Virus record (IMG/VR): IMGVR_UViG_3300032238_000645
Span: 1-21,302 of that record
From: a virus
Direction: 5' to 3' (one strand)
DNA length: 21,302 nt
Each line of letters opens with the position of its first letter. The stretch's first letter is position 1. The position numbers were made by a program, and so were the translations under genes. Below, in pieces: positions 2,902 to 18,069 of the stretch. The notes under the pieces are model-generated. The model saw only the letters and a list, made by a program, of their open reading frames with translations. It did not search any database and was not told the DNA's origin.

Positions 2902-3117
2902 ATGGCAATGCAAAAATTTACAATAGAAGAATTCCAAGCAGATTTTGATAACCTTCTTGAACGTGTAGAAGGTGGAGAGACATTTATCATTACATATGAA
3001 GGAAAGGAAGTAATGATAATGCCTGCAAAAGAATATAATTGCATAGTAGAAACAGTTGATAGCGTGGTGGATGAGGAAATCATACGCATCCACACTGATC
3101 ATGAAGAGGGATCATAA
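2902..3117 (+). CDS. Orphan Phd/YefM-family antitoxin
   Basis: This 71-aa protein matches the prevent-host-death fold: a short N-terminal strand and helix (MQKFTIEEFQADFDNLLERV), the turn GGETFIITYEGKEVMIMP typical of the Phd/YefM DNA-binding dimer, and an acidic C-terminal tail (about residues 50-71) of the kind that wraps a toxin. Family members repress their operon and neutralise a partner toxin such as Doc or YoeB. No toxin gene is adjacent: tRNA-Pro lies upstream and tRNA-Ile starts one base after the stop codon. It may neutralise a host toxin or act as a repressor. ATG 2908 is an alternative start. The strong upstream promoter suggests early expression with tRNA-Pro. Confidence 0.78.
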   Translation: MAMQKFTIEEFQADFDNLLERVEGGETFIITYEGKEVMIMPAKEYNCIVETVDSVVDEEIIRIHTDHEEGS

Positions 3118-3590: not shown

Positions 3591-3836
3591 ATGGAAACCA
3601 AAGTTCTTTTAGAACGTGAAGGATTTCGCTTTATAGAAAGAGGTATCATTGAACTCAATGGTAAACCTGATTTTCGATTACAAACACAAGATTATTATTC
3701 TAAAAGGTGGCATGACGTTTATTTGTTCGATAATTCTATGCAATGTTCTCTTGCAATGGAAGATATTGAGTATGCGAAATGGTTGACCGATCAACCATGT
3801 TATATGGATCCAGATGATATTCTTGATTGGGATTGA
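3591..3836 (+). CDS. Hypothetical protein, 81 aa
   Basis: This soluble acidic protein starts one base after the previous stop. It begins with mixed strand-like sequence (METKVLLEREGFRFIERG) and ends in an Asp-rich tail (MDPDDILDWD). No known domain is recognised. It is the last gene before the gene-free stretch at 3837-4101 and is probably transcribed from the promoter at 3192-3220. Function unknown. Confidence 0.68.
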   Translation: METKVLLEREGFRFIERGIIELNGKPDFRLQTQDYYSKRWHDVYLFDNSMQCSLAMEDIEYAKWLTDQPCYMDPDDILDWD

Positions 3837-4041
3837 CCGTCTCGGTATGACGTAAAACTAGCCCTGGTCGGTGATGAAATTCCCCTGAGACCTGAAATGT
3901 CTTAAAACTTACTCTGGTGGAGTCAATATGACCCTGTTATGAGTTTACAATCTCTCTAAAGGATTGTTGGTGCGGATGGGATACTCTCCCGCCTGGTTTC
4001 TTATTTCCAGTCAAAGAATAAGTGGCGAGCCTGAATGACCC
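3837..4041 (+). ncRNA. Candidate structured RNA upstream of the epimerase gene
   Basis: No ORF is supported here, but many local stems are visible: GTCTC (3839-3843) with GAGAC (3887-3891), ACTC/GAGT (3911-3923), GTCA/TGAC (3922-3932), ACAATC/GATTGT (3947-3967), GGGA/TCCC (3978-3990) and CTTATT/AATAAG (4000-4022) inside GCC/GGC (3991-4026). Some of these are alternatives. An imperfect 50-base repeat links 3841-3870 with 3891-3920, sharing TAAAACT and CTGGT. A strong terminator follows. The published wcaG RNA motif occurs in cyanophages upstream of exopolysaccharide and hli genes, and this stretch precedes a wcaG-like epimerase, so it is a candidate. I cannot verify the consensus from memory; it could instead be a 3' UTR or a separate small RNA. 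Confidence 0.45.
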
Positions 4042-4069
4042 AGGAGGTTGACAACAACCTCCTTTTTTT
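4042..4069 (+). terminator. Rho-independent terminator with -35 box in its stem-loop
   Basis: AGGAGGTTG (4042-4050) and CAACCTCCT (4055-4063) form a perfect 9-bp stem around ACAA, followed by a run of T. TTGACA (4048-4053), the -35 box of the operon promoter, spans the top of the stem and the loop. Confidence 0.9.
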
Positions 4070-4076
4070 GTATACT
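4048..4076 (+). promoter_or_regulatory. Promoter of the carbohydrate operon
   Basis: Perfect TTGACA (4048-4053), 17-bp spacer and TATACT (4071-4076), 25 bases before the epimerase ATG. The spacer is the 3' half and T-tract of the terminator. An 8-bp inverted repeat (4067-4085) is centred on the -10 box. No other good promoter was found before 15765. Confidence 0.85.
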
Positions 4077-4101: not shown

Positions 4102-5172
4102 ATGAGTCAATATGTAAAAAAAGCACTTGTATTAGGTGCTGGTGGTTTCATTGGAAGTCACATGGTAAAAAGACTACGTTCCGAAGGATATTGGGTACGT
4201 GGTGTGGATCTTAAATTTCCAGAGTTCTCTGAACATCAAGCGAATGAGTTTGTAATTGGAGATCTTAGAGATGTTACCTTTGTAGAAAGAGTGATTCAAT
4301 ACAAAGGAGATGGAGGAAACTTTTTTAAATTCGTTCCATCGAGATATCTTCAAGGATTTGATGAGATCTATCAGTTTGCTGCTGACATGGGCGGCGCAGG
4401 ATTTGTTTTCACTGGCGAAAACGATGCAGATATTATGCACAATTCAGTTACAATCAATCTGAATGTATTGGAATCTCTTCGTAAGTTTAATGATTTTCTT
4501 GGCAAGAACACAACCAAGATCTTCTATTCTGGATCGGCATGTATGTATCCAGAGCACAATCAATTAGATCCTGATAATCCAGATTGCCGTGAAGATTCCG
4601 CATATCCAGCAGACCCAGATAGTGAATATGGATGGGAGAAATTGTTTTCAGAACGTCTGTATTTTGCTTATCATCGCAATTATGGTATTCCTGTACGTGT
4701 TTCTAGATACCACAATATTTTTGGACCAGAAGGAACTTGGACTGGTGGTAGGGAAAAAGCACCTGCAGCTATCTGCCGTAAAGTTGCAGAACTTCCTCAA
4801 GTAGGAGGAACGATTGAAGTATGGGGAGATGGTGAACAAACCCGCTCATTCCTTTATATTGATGAATGCATTGAAGCAACTCGTCGCATGATGAATTCTG
4901 ATTTCATTGGACCAGTTAATATTGGTTCTGAAGAAATGGTAAGAATCAATGAACTTGTTGATATCACTGCTAAAGTGGCTGGCATTCCTGTAAAACGTCA
5001 GCATAAAATGGATGCTCCTTTAGGTGTCCGTGGTCGCAACAGTAACAATGATTTAGTTAGAAGTAAGTTAGGATGGGATTACTCTATGACATTGGAAGAG
5101 GGTATTGCCAAAACCTATGCATGGATTAAAGAACAAGTAAACAACAAAACAATTGATCATCATCCCGTTTGA
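4102..5172 (+). CDS. GDP-mannose 3,5-epimerase
   Basis: This 356-aa NAD-dependent short-chain epimerase converts GDP-D-mannose to GDP-L-galactose (and GDP-L-gulose) in the cytoplasm. The Rossmann motif is G12-A-G-G15-F-I-G18. The family blocks AADMGG (93-98), SACMY (145-149), EYGWEK (175-180), HNIFGP, TWTGGREKAPAA and WGDGEQTRSF are all present. Residues C147, Y176, K180 and K219 correspond, each offset by two, to C145, Y174, K178 and K217 of plant GDP-mannose epimerase, where C145/K217 are the epimerisation acid/base pair. That makes this call more specific than a generic epimerase. Extra residues at about 68-85 look like an insertion. It is the first gene of the operon and would feed the GT11-type transferases. 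Confidence 0.9.
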   Translation: MSQYVKKALVLGAGGFIGSHMVKRLRSEGYWVRGVDLKFPEFSEHQANEFVIGDLRDVTFVERVIQYKGDGGNFFKFVPSRYLQGFDEIYQFAADMGGAGFVFTGENDADIMHNSVTINLNVLESLRKFNDFLGKNTTKIFYSGSACMYPEHNQLDPDNPDCREDSAYPADPDSEYGWEKLFSERLYFAYHRNYGIPVRVSRYHNIFGPEGTWTGGREKAPAAICRKVAELPQVGGTIEVWGDGEQTRSFLYIDECIEATRRMMNSDFIGPVNIGSEEMVRINELVDITAKVAGIPVKRQHKMDAPLGVRGRNSNNDLVRSKLGWDYSMTLEEGIAKTYAWIKEQVNNKTIDHHPV

Positions 5173-15860: not shown

Positions 15861-15890
15861 TTGTCGTTTAGTACAAAAAAACAAATTTTT

Positions 15891-17378
15891 ATGAAAATCA
15901 AACAACTGATGCTTGCACCTGTTGCTTTTGGTATGATTGCTCCTGCTGTTGCGAATGCAGCAGATCTCAATTTGGCAGCAGTCAATCAATACTCAACCGC
16001 AGACCAGGTTTCCAGCGTCACTCAATTGTCTGATGTTCGTCCTACGGATTGGGCATACCAGGCACTCAGCAATCTTGTTGAGAAATATGGTTGCGTTGCA
16101 GGTTATCCCAACGGAACTTTTGGTGGTAGCAAAGCAATGACTCGTTTTGAGGCAGCAGCTCTTCTGAATGCTTGTCTTGATCGTGTGACTGAAAGCACCG
16201 ATGAACTCAAAAAACTCCTTGCCGAGTTTGATACGGAACTTTCTGTTATCACTGCTCGCGTTGATGGACTTGAGAGTAAAGTTGGTAAACTCCAAGCAAC
16301 TCAATTCTCTACCACAACCAAACTCAAAGGTGAAGCAACCTTCGTTCTTGGTGGTGCTCCTGGTTATAAGACTACTGCTGGTGCTAATGCTGGTAATACT
16401 GCATTTAACTATGACCTTCGCCTGAACTTTGATACATCTTTCAATGGCAAGGATTTGCTTCGCACTCGTCTGCGTTCTGGTAATTTCTCCAGTGCTCCTT
16501 TTGGTTCTTCTTCTTCACTTCTCAAACTTGATAAAGCAGAAACTTCCCAAGGAACTGGTACTACCAGTAACATCTGGTTGGATCGTCTGTACTACACATT
16601 CCCCGCTGGTCAGAATGTAAAACTGACTGCTGGTGCCCTTGTTCGTAACACTGAACTTGCTTGGATTGCTTCGGCATATAAGTCAGACATTCTTGACTTC
16701 TTCCAACTTGGCGGTGCTTCTGGTGTCTATAACAAAGCAACTGGTGCTGGTTTCGGTGCTCAATACACTCAACCTGGAACTCAAGGTTTTGTTGCTAACC
16801 TGAACTATGTTGCTGTCACTGGTTCGGATACTTCCACTGGTGTATTTGATTCCTCTGGTGGTCTGAATCTTCTTGGACAGATTGGATATCGTGCTCCTCA
16901 ATGGGGTGTGGCAGTAGGATACCGTTATGGTACTGAAGGTTCACGAGTTCGTAACTACAATGCTCTTGGCGGTGGTTCTGGTGCTCTTGGAAATGGTCAA
17001 GATTCCAACAGCATAGCATTCAATGCTTACTGGCAACCCAAGACTTCTGGTATTGTTCCTTCCATCAGCTTCGGTTATGGATACAATGGTATCAGTGGTG
17101 CTGGTGCTGCTACTGGTGCTACCAATTCACAATCTTGGTTCACTGGACTTCAGTGGTCTGATGTGTTTGCTAAGGGCAATACCGCTGGTCTTGCTGTTGG
17201 TCAACCTTCAAACTCTGAGAATGCTAAAAAAGCAACTCTGTTTGAAGCATTCTATAAGTATCAGGTTAGTAACAACATCTCAGTTACTCCTGCTATCTTC
17301 TATGCTTCTGACAACCAAGGCACTCTGAATGCCTCCTCTGGTTGGGGTGGTGTAATTCAGACAACCTTCAAGTTCTGA
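15891..17378 (+). CDS. SLH-domain outer-membrane porin
   Basis: This 495-aa protein has the layout of cyanobacterial Som/OprB porins. Residues 1-23 are a signal peptide ending ANA before ADLN. An SLH domain lies at about 48-98 (WAYQALSNLVEKYG, NGTFGGSKAMTRFEAAALL), with a helical coiled-coil linker at about 100-136. A beta-barrel part rich in Gly, Thr and Tyr extends to the C-terminus and ends in Phe (TFKF), the BAM recognition signal. SLH domains tie such porins to peptidoglycan-linked polymers. The frame extends back to a TTG at 15861, but ATG 15891 starts the signal peptide. It is full length, so function is plausible: altered permeability or receptor masking in the infected host. Confidence 0.88.
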   Translation: MKIKQLMLAPVAFGMIAPAVANAADLNLAAVNQYSTADQVSSVTQLSDVRPTDWAYQALSNLVEKYGCVAGYPNGTFGGSKAMTRFEAAALLNACLDRVTESTDELKKLLAEFDTELSVITARVDGLESKVGKLQATQFSTTTKLKGEATFVLGGAPGYKTTAGANAGNTAFNYDLRLNFDTSFNGKDLLRTRLRSGNFSSAPFGSSSSLLKLDKAETSQGTGTTSNIWLDRLYYTFPAGQNVKLTAGALVRNTELAWIASAYKSDILDFFQLGGASGVYNKATGAGFGAQYTQPGTQGFVANLNYVAVTGSDTSTGVFDSSGGLNLLGQIGYRAPQWGVAVGYRYGTEGSRVRNYNALGGGSGALGNGQDSNSIAFNAYWQPKTSGIVPSISFGYGYNGISGAGAATGATNSQSWFTGLQWSDVFAKGNTAGLAVGQPSNSENAKKATLFEAFYKYQVSNNISVTPAIFYASDNQGTLNASSGWGGVIQTTFKF

Positions 17379-17386
17379 TAATTGCT

Positions 17387-17412
17387 GGGGGGGTTGACAA
17401 ACCCCCCTTTTT
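17387..17412 (+). terminator. Rho-independent terminator with embedded -35 box
   Basis: A G-run plus TT (17387-17395) pairs with AA plus six C (17400-17407) around GACA, followed by TTTTT. The -35 TTGACA (17394-17399) lies across the stem top and loop, the same arrangement as 4042-4069. Confidence 0.92.
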
Positions 17413-17422
17413 CATATATACT
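17394..17422 (+). promoter_or_regulatory. hli operon promoter
   Basis: Perfect TTGACA (17394-17399), 17-bp spacer and TATACT (17417-17422), 27 bases before the hli ATG. The spacer holds the 3' arm and T-tract of the porin terminator. Confidence 0.85.
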
Positions 17423-17449: not shown

Positions 17450-17659
17450 ATGACTGTAACTACTAATGAGTTTGGGCAACAAAACATGTTTGCTAAAGAA
17501 CCCAAAATGTATGTGTCTCAAAGTGATGCAGAGCGTTATGCTCTTCAAACTCATGCAGAACGTGCTGAACTTTTAAATGGACGCACTGCAATGCTTGGAT
17601 TTGTAGCAGCACTTATTTCTTATGCATTCACTGGACACCTCTTCTTTGGTGTAATCTGA
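17450..17659 (+). CDS. hli: High-light-inducible protein (Hli), copy 1
   Basis: This 69-aa protein has a hydrophilic N-terminus and one transmembrane helix with the chlorophyll-binding LHC motif AELLNGRTAMLGF (residues about 40-52), followed by VAALISYAFTGHLFFGVI. The E...NGR...M pattern is complete. Hli proteins bind chlorophyll and carotenoid in the thylakoid membrane and protect photosystem assembly under stress; cyanophages carry them to keep the host photosynthesising during infection. It is the first gene of a four-gene unit behind a strong promoter, and the next start overlaps its stop (TGATG). Confidence 0.92.
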   Translation: MTVTTNEFGQQNMFAKEPKMYVSQSDAERYALQTHAERAELLNGRTAMLGFVAALISYAFTGHLFFGVI

Positions 17660-17864: not shown

Positions 17865-18007
17865 TGAAGTGTAAAGTGCAATTGTATGTTGCAGGTAAGG
17901 TCTTCCATGAGATTGTAGAAGCAAGAGACTATAAAGATGCAAAAGAAACTGCACTTGCAAGAAATCCAACTGCAAAAGTTGTTGGTGTGACTGCTATTCT
18001 AGTTTGA
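17864..18007 (+). CDS. Hypothetical protein, 47 aa, end of hli operon
   Basis: ATG 17864 overlaps the Hli stop (TAATG). The frame is open back to 17786, but that would lie within Hli. The product MKCKVQLYVAGKVFHEIVEA... looks like a small beta-alpha-beta protein (strand VQLYVAGKVF, helix YKDAKETALAR, strand KVVGVTAILV). No catalytic motif. A strong terminator follows. Its place at the end of the hli unit suggests co-expression with photoprotection genes. Confidence 0.75.
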   Translation: MKCKVQLYVAGKVFHEIVEARDYKDAKETALARNPTAKVVGVTAILV

Positions 18008-18016
18008 ATATAATTG

Positions 18017-18039
18017 AAGCGCCTTTAGGCGCTTTTTTT
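18017..18039 (+). terminator. Rho-independent terminator of the hli operon
   Basis: AAGCGCC (18017-18023) pairs with GGCGCTT (18028-18034) around TTTA, followed by a run of T to 18039. A late-type motif begins on the last T. Confidence 0.92.
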
Positions 18040-18046
18040 ATAAATA
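18039..18046 (+). promoter_or_regulatory. T4-type late promoter motif TATAAATA
   Basis: TATAAATA lies 23 bases before the C39-like gene and immediately after the hli terminator, a reasonable place for a late lysis promoter. Confidence 0.6.
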
Positions 18047-18069
18047 CCTGAGTGCTTTAAAGAGGAATA

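Follow-up and report, generated by a model that had tools for sequence, protein, structure and literature searches.

Terminator hairpins carrying the -35 box of a following promoter as a probable operon boundary in T4-like cyanophages

Introduction

The element at positions 4042–4076 of a cyanophage sequence is very probably a compact, one-directional operon boundary, and would represent the cyanophage form of the promoter-early stem-loop (PeSL) cassettes of T4-like phages. This reading is based on the geometry of the element, its recurrence among relatives, the covariation of its stems, the repeated independent origin of such stems, and the differing genes by which it is flanked. PeSLs are reportedly small composites, located at operon boundaries of variable regions, in which a strong early promoter of the sigma-70 type is combined with the stem-loop of an intrinsic terminator. 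They are said to have been treated by Arbiol et al. in 2010 and by Comeau et al. in 2014, to have been first described in RB49, and to have been proposed as recombination sites for gene shuffling.

The window, i.e. the whole stretch of DNA that was analysed, is a 21.3-kb record of a T4-like cyanophage, which carries sugar-nucleotide genes, tRNAs, a porin, and a high-light-inducible gene (hli). Its nearest named relatives are Synechococcus phages.

Results

The preliminary description had reported, at two sites of the window, a TTGACA within a terminator hairpin, followed after a 17-nt spacer by TATACT, and coordinates and folds agree with this geometry exactly (Table 1). Each promoter matches 11 of the 12 consensus positions. 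The element has the hairpin and U-tract of an intrinsic terminator, with stem changes that are compensated among relatives, as well as two hexamers within the 16–18 nt of a sigma-70-type promoter, which are kept in relatives (in 52/52 at hli).

Table 1. Positions in the window of the two copies and of the genes and RNA beside them.
Feature	Position	Strand	Details
Upstream ORF, 81 aa, PHROG 481	3591..3836	+	Function not assigned; last gene before the boundary
wcaG RNA, RF01761	3939..4036	+	Rfam covariance model; full-length match (model positions 1–98 of 98), 104.1 bits against a gathering threshold of 42 bits
Copy 1, terminator hairpin	4042..4063	+	Fold; AGGAGGTTGACAACAACCTCCT; 9-bp stem, -14.0 kcal/mol; shuffle z -4.3 (folded alone)
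Copy 1, -35 box TTGACA	4048..4053	+	Stem top and loop of the hairpin
Copy 1, spacer	4054..4070		17 nt between TTGACA and TATACT
Copy 1, T-tract T7	4063..4069	+	
Copy 1, -10 box TATACT	4071..4076	+	17 nt past the -35 box
NAD-dependent nucleotide-sugar epimerase	4102..5172	+	First gene of the sugar cluster after copy 1
Porin ORF, OprB and SLH domains	15861..17378	+	Putatively terminated by copy 2
Copy 2, terminator hairpin	17387..17408	+	Fold; GGGGGGGTTGACAAACCCCCCT; 9-bp stem, -17.6 kcal/mol; shuffle z -2.6 (folded alone)
Copy 2, -35 box TTGACA	17394..17399	+	Within the hairpin
Copy 2, T-tract T5	17408..17412	+	
Copy 2, -10 box TATACT	17417..17422	+	17 nt past the -35 box
High-light-inducible protein hli, PHROG 178	17450..17659	+	First gene after copy 2

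Copy 1 lies within a 265-nt non-coding stretch, which also holds the wcaG RNA; this RNA, which ends 6 nt before copy 1, is absent from the preliminary description and surfaced by an Rfam search. The sugar cluster from 4102 would be transcribed from the copy 1 promoter. Copy 2 (17387–17422) starts 8 nt past the porin stop codon and ends 28 nt short of the hli start codon, and is the predicted promoter of the hli gene.

Other features of the window were noted in the course of the analysis. The non-coding sequence 5' of wcaG (3836–3938) contains two segments that resemble each other, ATGACGTAAAACTAGCCCTGGTCGG and ATGTCTTAAAACTTACTCTGGTGGA; sequence like this is also found 5' of wcaG in several isolates, and an Rfam search of this stretch assigned no family. 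A small ORF between tRNA genes (2902–3117) matches the Phd/YefM antitoxin (Pfam PF02604). The porin is shared with the freshwater phage S-SRM01, with 73% DNA identity.

To follow the wcaG RNA in other phages, 131 non-identical copies with enough 3' sequence were collected from loci of epimerase relatives, from loci found by the wcaG core pattern irrespective of their 3' sequence, and from phage genomes. A fused terminator-promoter follows the RNA in 96 of them, which are not independent events and contain 78 distinct hairpins. The remaining copies have a terminator only (6), a promoter only (6), both unfused (2), or neither by the criteria used (21), and in many of the last group an extended RNA variant displaces the hairpin farther away. 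A readable -35 box at a spacer of 17 is present in 93 of the 96 fused units, nearly all in one register, with TTGCAT (56), TTGACA (15), TTTACA (14), and others (8) as its classes; the -10 box is TATAAT in 79 of the 93. Since TTGCAT, the commonest class, agrees with the TTGACA consensus at only three of six positions, the strength of the promoter in these units is uncertain. Syn9 carries the wcaG RNA followed by a promoter without a hairpin, and no fused element was found in this genome by the criteria used. S-CREM1 has wcaG and a promoter with only a weak hairpin. Among isolates, S-SRM01 and DSL-LC03 carry the unit.

The stems of the wcaG units covary. Among 31 distinct sequences of the TTGCAT and TTTACA classes, pairing holds in 99.6% of cells of the 8-bp stem; both sides have changed in six of its eight pairs, and covariation scores 0.553 compared with 0.084–0.217 for slid partners. 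The stem is paired in 100% of the 12 TTGACA-class sequences, with a covariation score of 0.360 compared with at most 0.129 for slid partners. Thus, pairing of the stem is retained, with the promoter boxes and their spacing staying fixed. The genes on either side of these units vary, forming 16 upstream and 13 downstream clusters in many combinations. Relatives of the PHROG 481 ORF are the commonest upstream neighbours, and the downstream genes are mostly sugar-nucleotide genes, with hli in Syn9. Together with the sugar genes next to copy 1 and the porin and hli genes next to copy 2, these varied flanks place the element at boundaries of variable regions. wcaG is single-copy in all 22 records that carry it, save for one weak second match.

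The extended wcaG variant (L421, L372, L368, L382, L307, and others) has CCGTGTGG..GTGGCG as an additional domain, and the loop of the hairpin at its end holds TTGACC or CTGACC. A tRNA gene often comes immediately after this hairpin, without a -10 box, as if the tRNA took the place of the second half of the promoter.

The family to which copy 2 belongs is found upstream of hli. A promoter with at least 10 of 12 consensus positions is present in all 52 distinct hli relatives, and in 18 of them a hairpin surrounds the -35 box, with stems unrelated to each other (e.g. GAGGCTTGACAGCCTC, CCCCCTTGACAGGGGG, GGACCTCTTGACGGAGGTCC). All 18 of these promoters follow an ORF on the same strand which ends at most 43 nt away. 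The other 34 lack a hairpin, nine of them with a separate terminator 23–35 nt upstream; therefore, fusion of terminator and promoter is optional at hli. The unrelated stems support the view that hairpins arose at the hli promoter repeatedly and independently. One scan of host genome contigs for hli relatives found none. The two copies of the window had been called independent, and they do come from separate conserved families, i.e. the wcaG units and the hli promoters.

In a neutral scan for CTTGACAG..TATATAAT promoters, with a hairpin as no condition, 108 distinct sites were obtained, and 12 of them have at least seven further stem pairs. Seven to nine extra pairs were observed at nine sites, compared with about 0.3 expected under flank swapping, which was chosen as the control since shuffling of the T-tract region destroys the terminator itself. 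Another scan, for the pattern GGTTGACA..AACC..TATA, is biased towards hairpins and was used only for its spacer distribution, in which the spacer is exactly 17 nt in 84 of 123 matches.

Promoters were then located relative to terminators, both being defined as consensus matches. Near 210 non-redundant terminators of cyanophage contigs, which were chosen by gene or RNA and not randomly, there are 53 promoters within 100 nt, 22 of them with the -35 box in the top of the hairpin, defined as a start 1–8 nt before the loop centre. Nine cyanophage genomes with 297 terminators gave 18 of 52 promoters in this position, and KVP40 gave five of nine. No promoter has its -35 box in the hairpin top at T4 terminators, nor in RB49, where 8 of 13 promoters lie at +24 to +31, wholly past the T-tract. 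The number of fused elements per cyanophage genome ranges from 0 to 9, and their stems are mostly unlike each other. In a smaller second cluster (12 of 53 promoters on the contigs and 6 of 52 in the genomes), the -10 box lies immediately 5' of the hairpin, so that the start point would fall in the 5' arm and the transcript would lack the full terminator.

An arrangement of this second kind is present in the window at 17987–18047, where the promoter GTGACT-16-TATAAT (10/12) has a -10 box that ends 2 nt 5' of a terminator hairpin (18016–18035). The T4-type late promoter core TATAAATA starts at 18039, where the T-tract of this hairpin ends. The same core is found 0–11 nt past the stem in 13 of the 210 contig and 16 of the 297 genome terminators (non-redundant), and with 26 occurrences it ranks first among 21 permuted words (median 1) at this distance. 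It seems that late promoters, too, are fused to terminators.

The preliminary description had made its proposal depend on recurrence in related phages, and the element does recur, at wcaG loci, at hli promoters, and around cyanophage terminators, in sets of loci that overlap in ancestry. The claim that a single element both closes one operon and opens the following one gains support at the level of sequence from this recurrence, the covariation, the hli stems, and the positional peak. Similarly, the compensated stem changes, the repeated independent stems at hli, and the sharpness of the positional peak argue for a selected design, as had been suggested.

Discussion

A possible mechanism of the element can be described as follows. 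Polymerase from the upstream operon would transcribe the full hairpin and the U-tract and then stop by intrinsic termination, and unmodified host sigma-70-type polymerase would start the next operon from the same DNA, which offers a -35 box at the top of the hairpin and a -10 box immediately past the T-tract. Initiation would fall downstream of the hairpin, so that the transcript of the second operon would be free of the terminator and escape its own stop. In most wcaG loci, the unit would consist of the wcaG RNA, the terminator, and the embedded promoter. Early promoters of cyanomyoviruses are believed to be served by the unmodified sigma-70-type polymerase of the host, since these phages lack the T4 specificity factors alt, modA, modB, motA, and asi (PMC2984593). 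Both termination and initiation presumably take place at the element, and selection probably favours compaction or cassette exchange.

The combination of a terminator stem-loop and a sigma-70-type promoter in one small cassette is that of a PeSL, a precedent that the preliminary description does not name, and the KVP40 elements share with the cyanophage elements the -35 box in the hairpin. However, the RB49 promoter lies 24–31 nt past the loop and wholly downstream of the T-tract, and the stems of the cyanophage elements are unrelated between copies, with many units tied to the wcaG RNA. The promoters before hli and other genes resemble the early sigma-70-type promoters of the cyanomyoviruses S-PM2 and Syn9 (TTGACA-17-TATAAT type), but here the -35 box forms part of the terminator that closes the preceding operon. 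Halovirus HGTV-1 has a repeated motif of a TATA box and an inverted repeat before many of its genes, which has been likened to PeSLs (PMC3950731); it is likewise a promoter-like repeat with an inverted repeat, but the promoter is of the archaeal type. A DNA-hairpin promoter of the N4 type and a repressor-bound stoperator were set aside on general knowledge, since the promoter has the appearance of a common double-stranded one of the sigma-70 type and repeated asymmetric operators were not observed.

It is highly improbable that only the terminator or only the promoter works and that the other half is a chance match, favoured by the AT-rich sequence past a T-tract or by GC-rich flanks. Both motifs are short, the intergenic regions of phages are crowded, and there are the six wcaG copies with a terminator only and the six with a promoter only. 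However, the -35 and -10 boxes occur at one spacing and one loop offset far more often than elsewhere, the stems covary, the swapped-flank control fails to give long stems, and hli promoters are conserved whether or not they have a hairpin. The elements may instead serve mainly as recombination sites for gene shuffling, which is unlikely. The flanking genes do differ around a constant wcaG-terminator-promoter unit, and PeSLs are said to offer a precedent; but wcaG is single-copy, with one weak second match as the exception, and the stems diverge, so that copies within a genome share little sequence. Moreover, few PeSL-like elements were found in the examined part of S-PM2, where their density was judged too low for such a role (PMC4503421).

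The place of wcaG raises a further alternative. It has been described as a cis-regulatory riboswitch candidate of marine metagenomes and T4-like cyanophages, where it is found near exopolysaccharide and high-light genes (PMC2864571). As the family description has it, a sugar-nucleotide gene lies downstream of the full-length member that copy 1 follows, but the promoter of this gene sits past the RNA, inside the next terminator. wcaG might be a riboswitch in a 5' leader with the hairpin as its expression platform, so that a ligand would set the read-through and the embedded promoter would be secondary. The terminator within a few nucleotides of wcaG and the downstream genes, mostly for sugar nucleotides and in Syn9 hli, would fit this scheme, which we regard as somewhat unlikely. 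A strong promoter (at least 10/12) was found within 400 nt 5' of wcaG in only 3 of 89 fused units, and the late promoter NATAAATA within the same distance in none of 78 units, although a promoter farther upstream is possible. Nor were mutually exclusive folds of aptamer and terminator seen, since the terminator hairpin is intact beside wcaG in 75 of 78 minimum free energy folds. Because promoters 5' of wcaG are few and the hairpin stays intact, wcaG is placed after the upstream gene and before the terminator of that gene, which suggests that it lies on the 3' side of the transcript from upstream rather than in a downstream leader. It may also control read-through from farther upstream; more likely than a leader riboswitch, the RNA forms part of the end of the upstream message or controls read-through.

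Two other arrangements for wcaG were considered and rejected. An antiterminator is one of them, since wcaG pairs with the arms of its own terminator no better than with those of others (78 units). The other is an early- or late-type promoter of its own directly 5', which is not seen in most units.

The two operons may also be coupled, such that a terminated polymerase stays and restarts at the next promoter, or blocks it. The terminator-promoter distance is about zero, so that the footprints of the terminating and the initiating polymerase would have to overlap, and bacterial polymerase often remains on the DNA after intrinsic termination and can restart nearby (PMC6978322, PMC6978380, PMC11347151). 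An effect of read-through or of arriving polymerase on initiation at the next operon is physically plausible. In one study, however, the restart after termination was usually antisense (PMC6978322), and sequence alone cannot tell coupling from mere compaction; overall, such coupling is quite unlikely. A relay, in which the terminating polymerase sits on the next promoter, catches sigma, and restarts, with wcaG setting the level of termination, is very doubtful; if it is true, wcaG would act as a control element at the 3' end instead of as a 5' riboswitch.

In the literature searched, we did not find described the measured position of the -35 box in the hairpin of cyanophages, which is absent from RB49 and present in KVP40, the repeated independent stems at one promoter, or the link to wcaG.

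For the operon boundary favoured here, the tests to be made of wcaG, an orphan RNA known since 2010, change, since in most copies the downstream promoter follows the RNA. More generally, it appears that cyanophages, as viruses of ocean and lake cyanobacteria, repeatedly form the stop signal of one operon so that it encloses the -35 box of the promoter that follows. With this design, a simple rule at the level of sequence would mark operon boundaries in viruses of a very abundant group.
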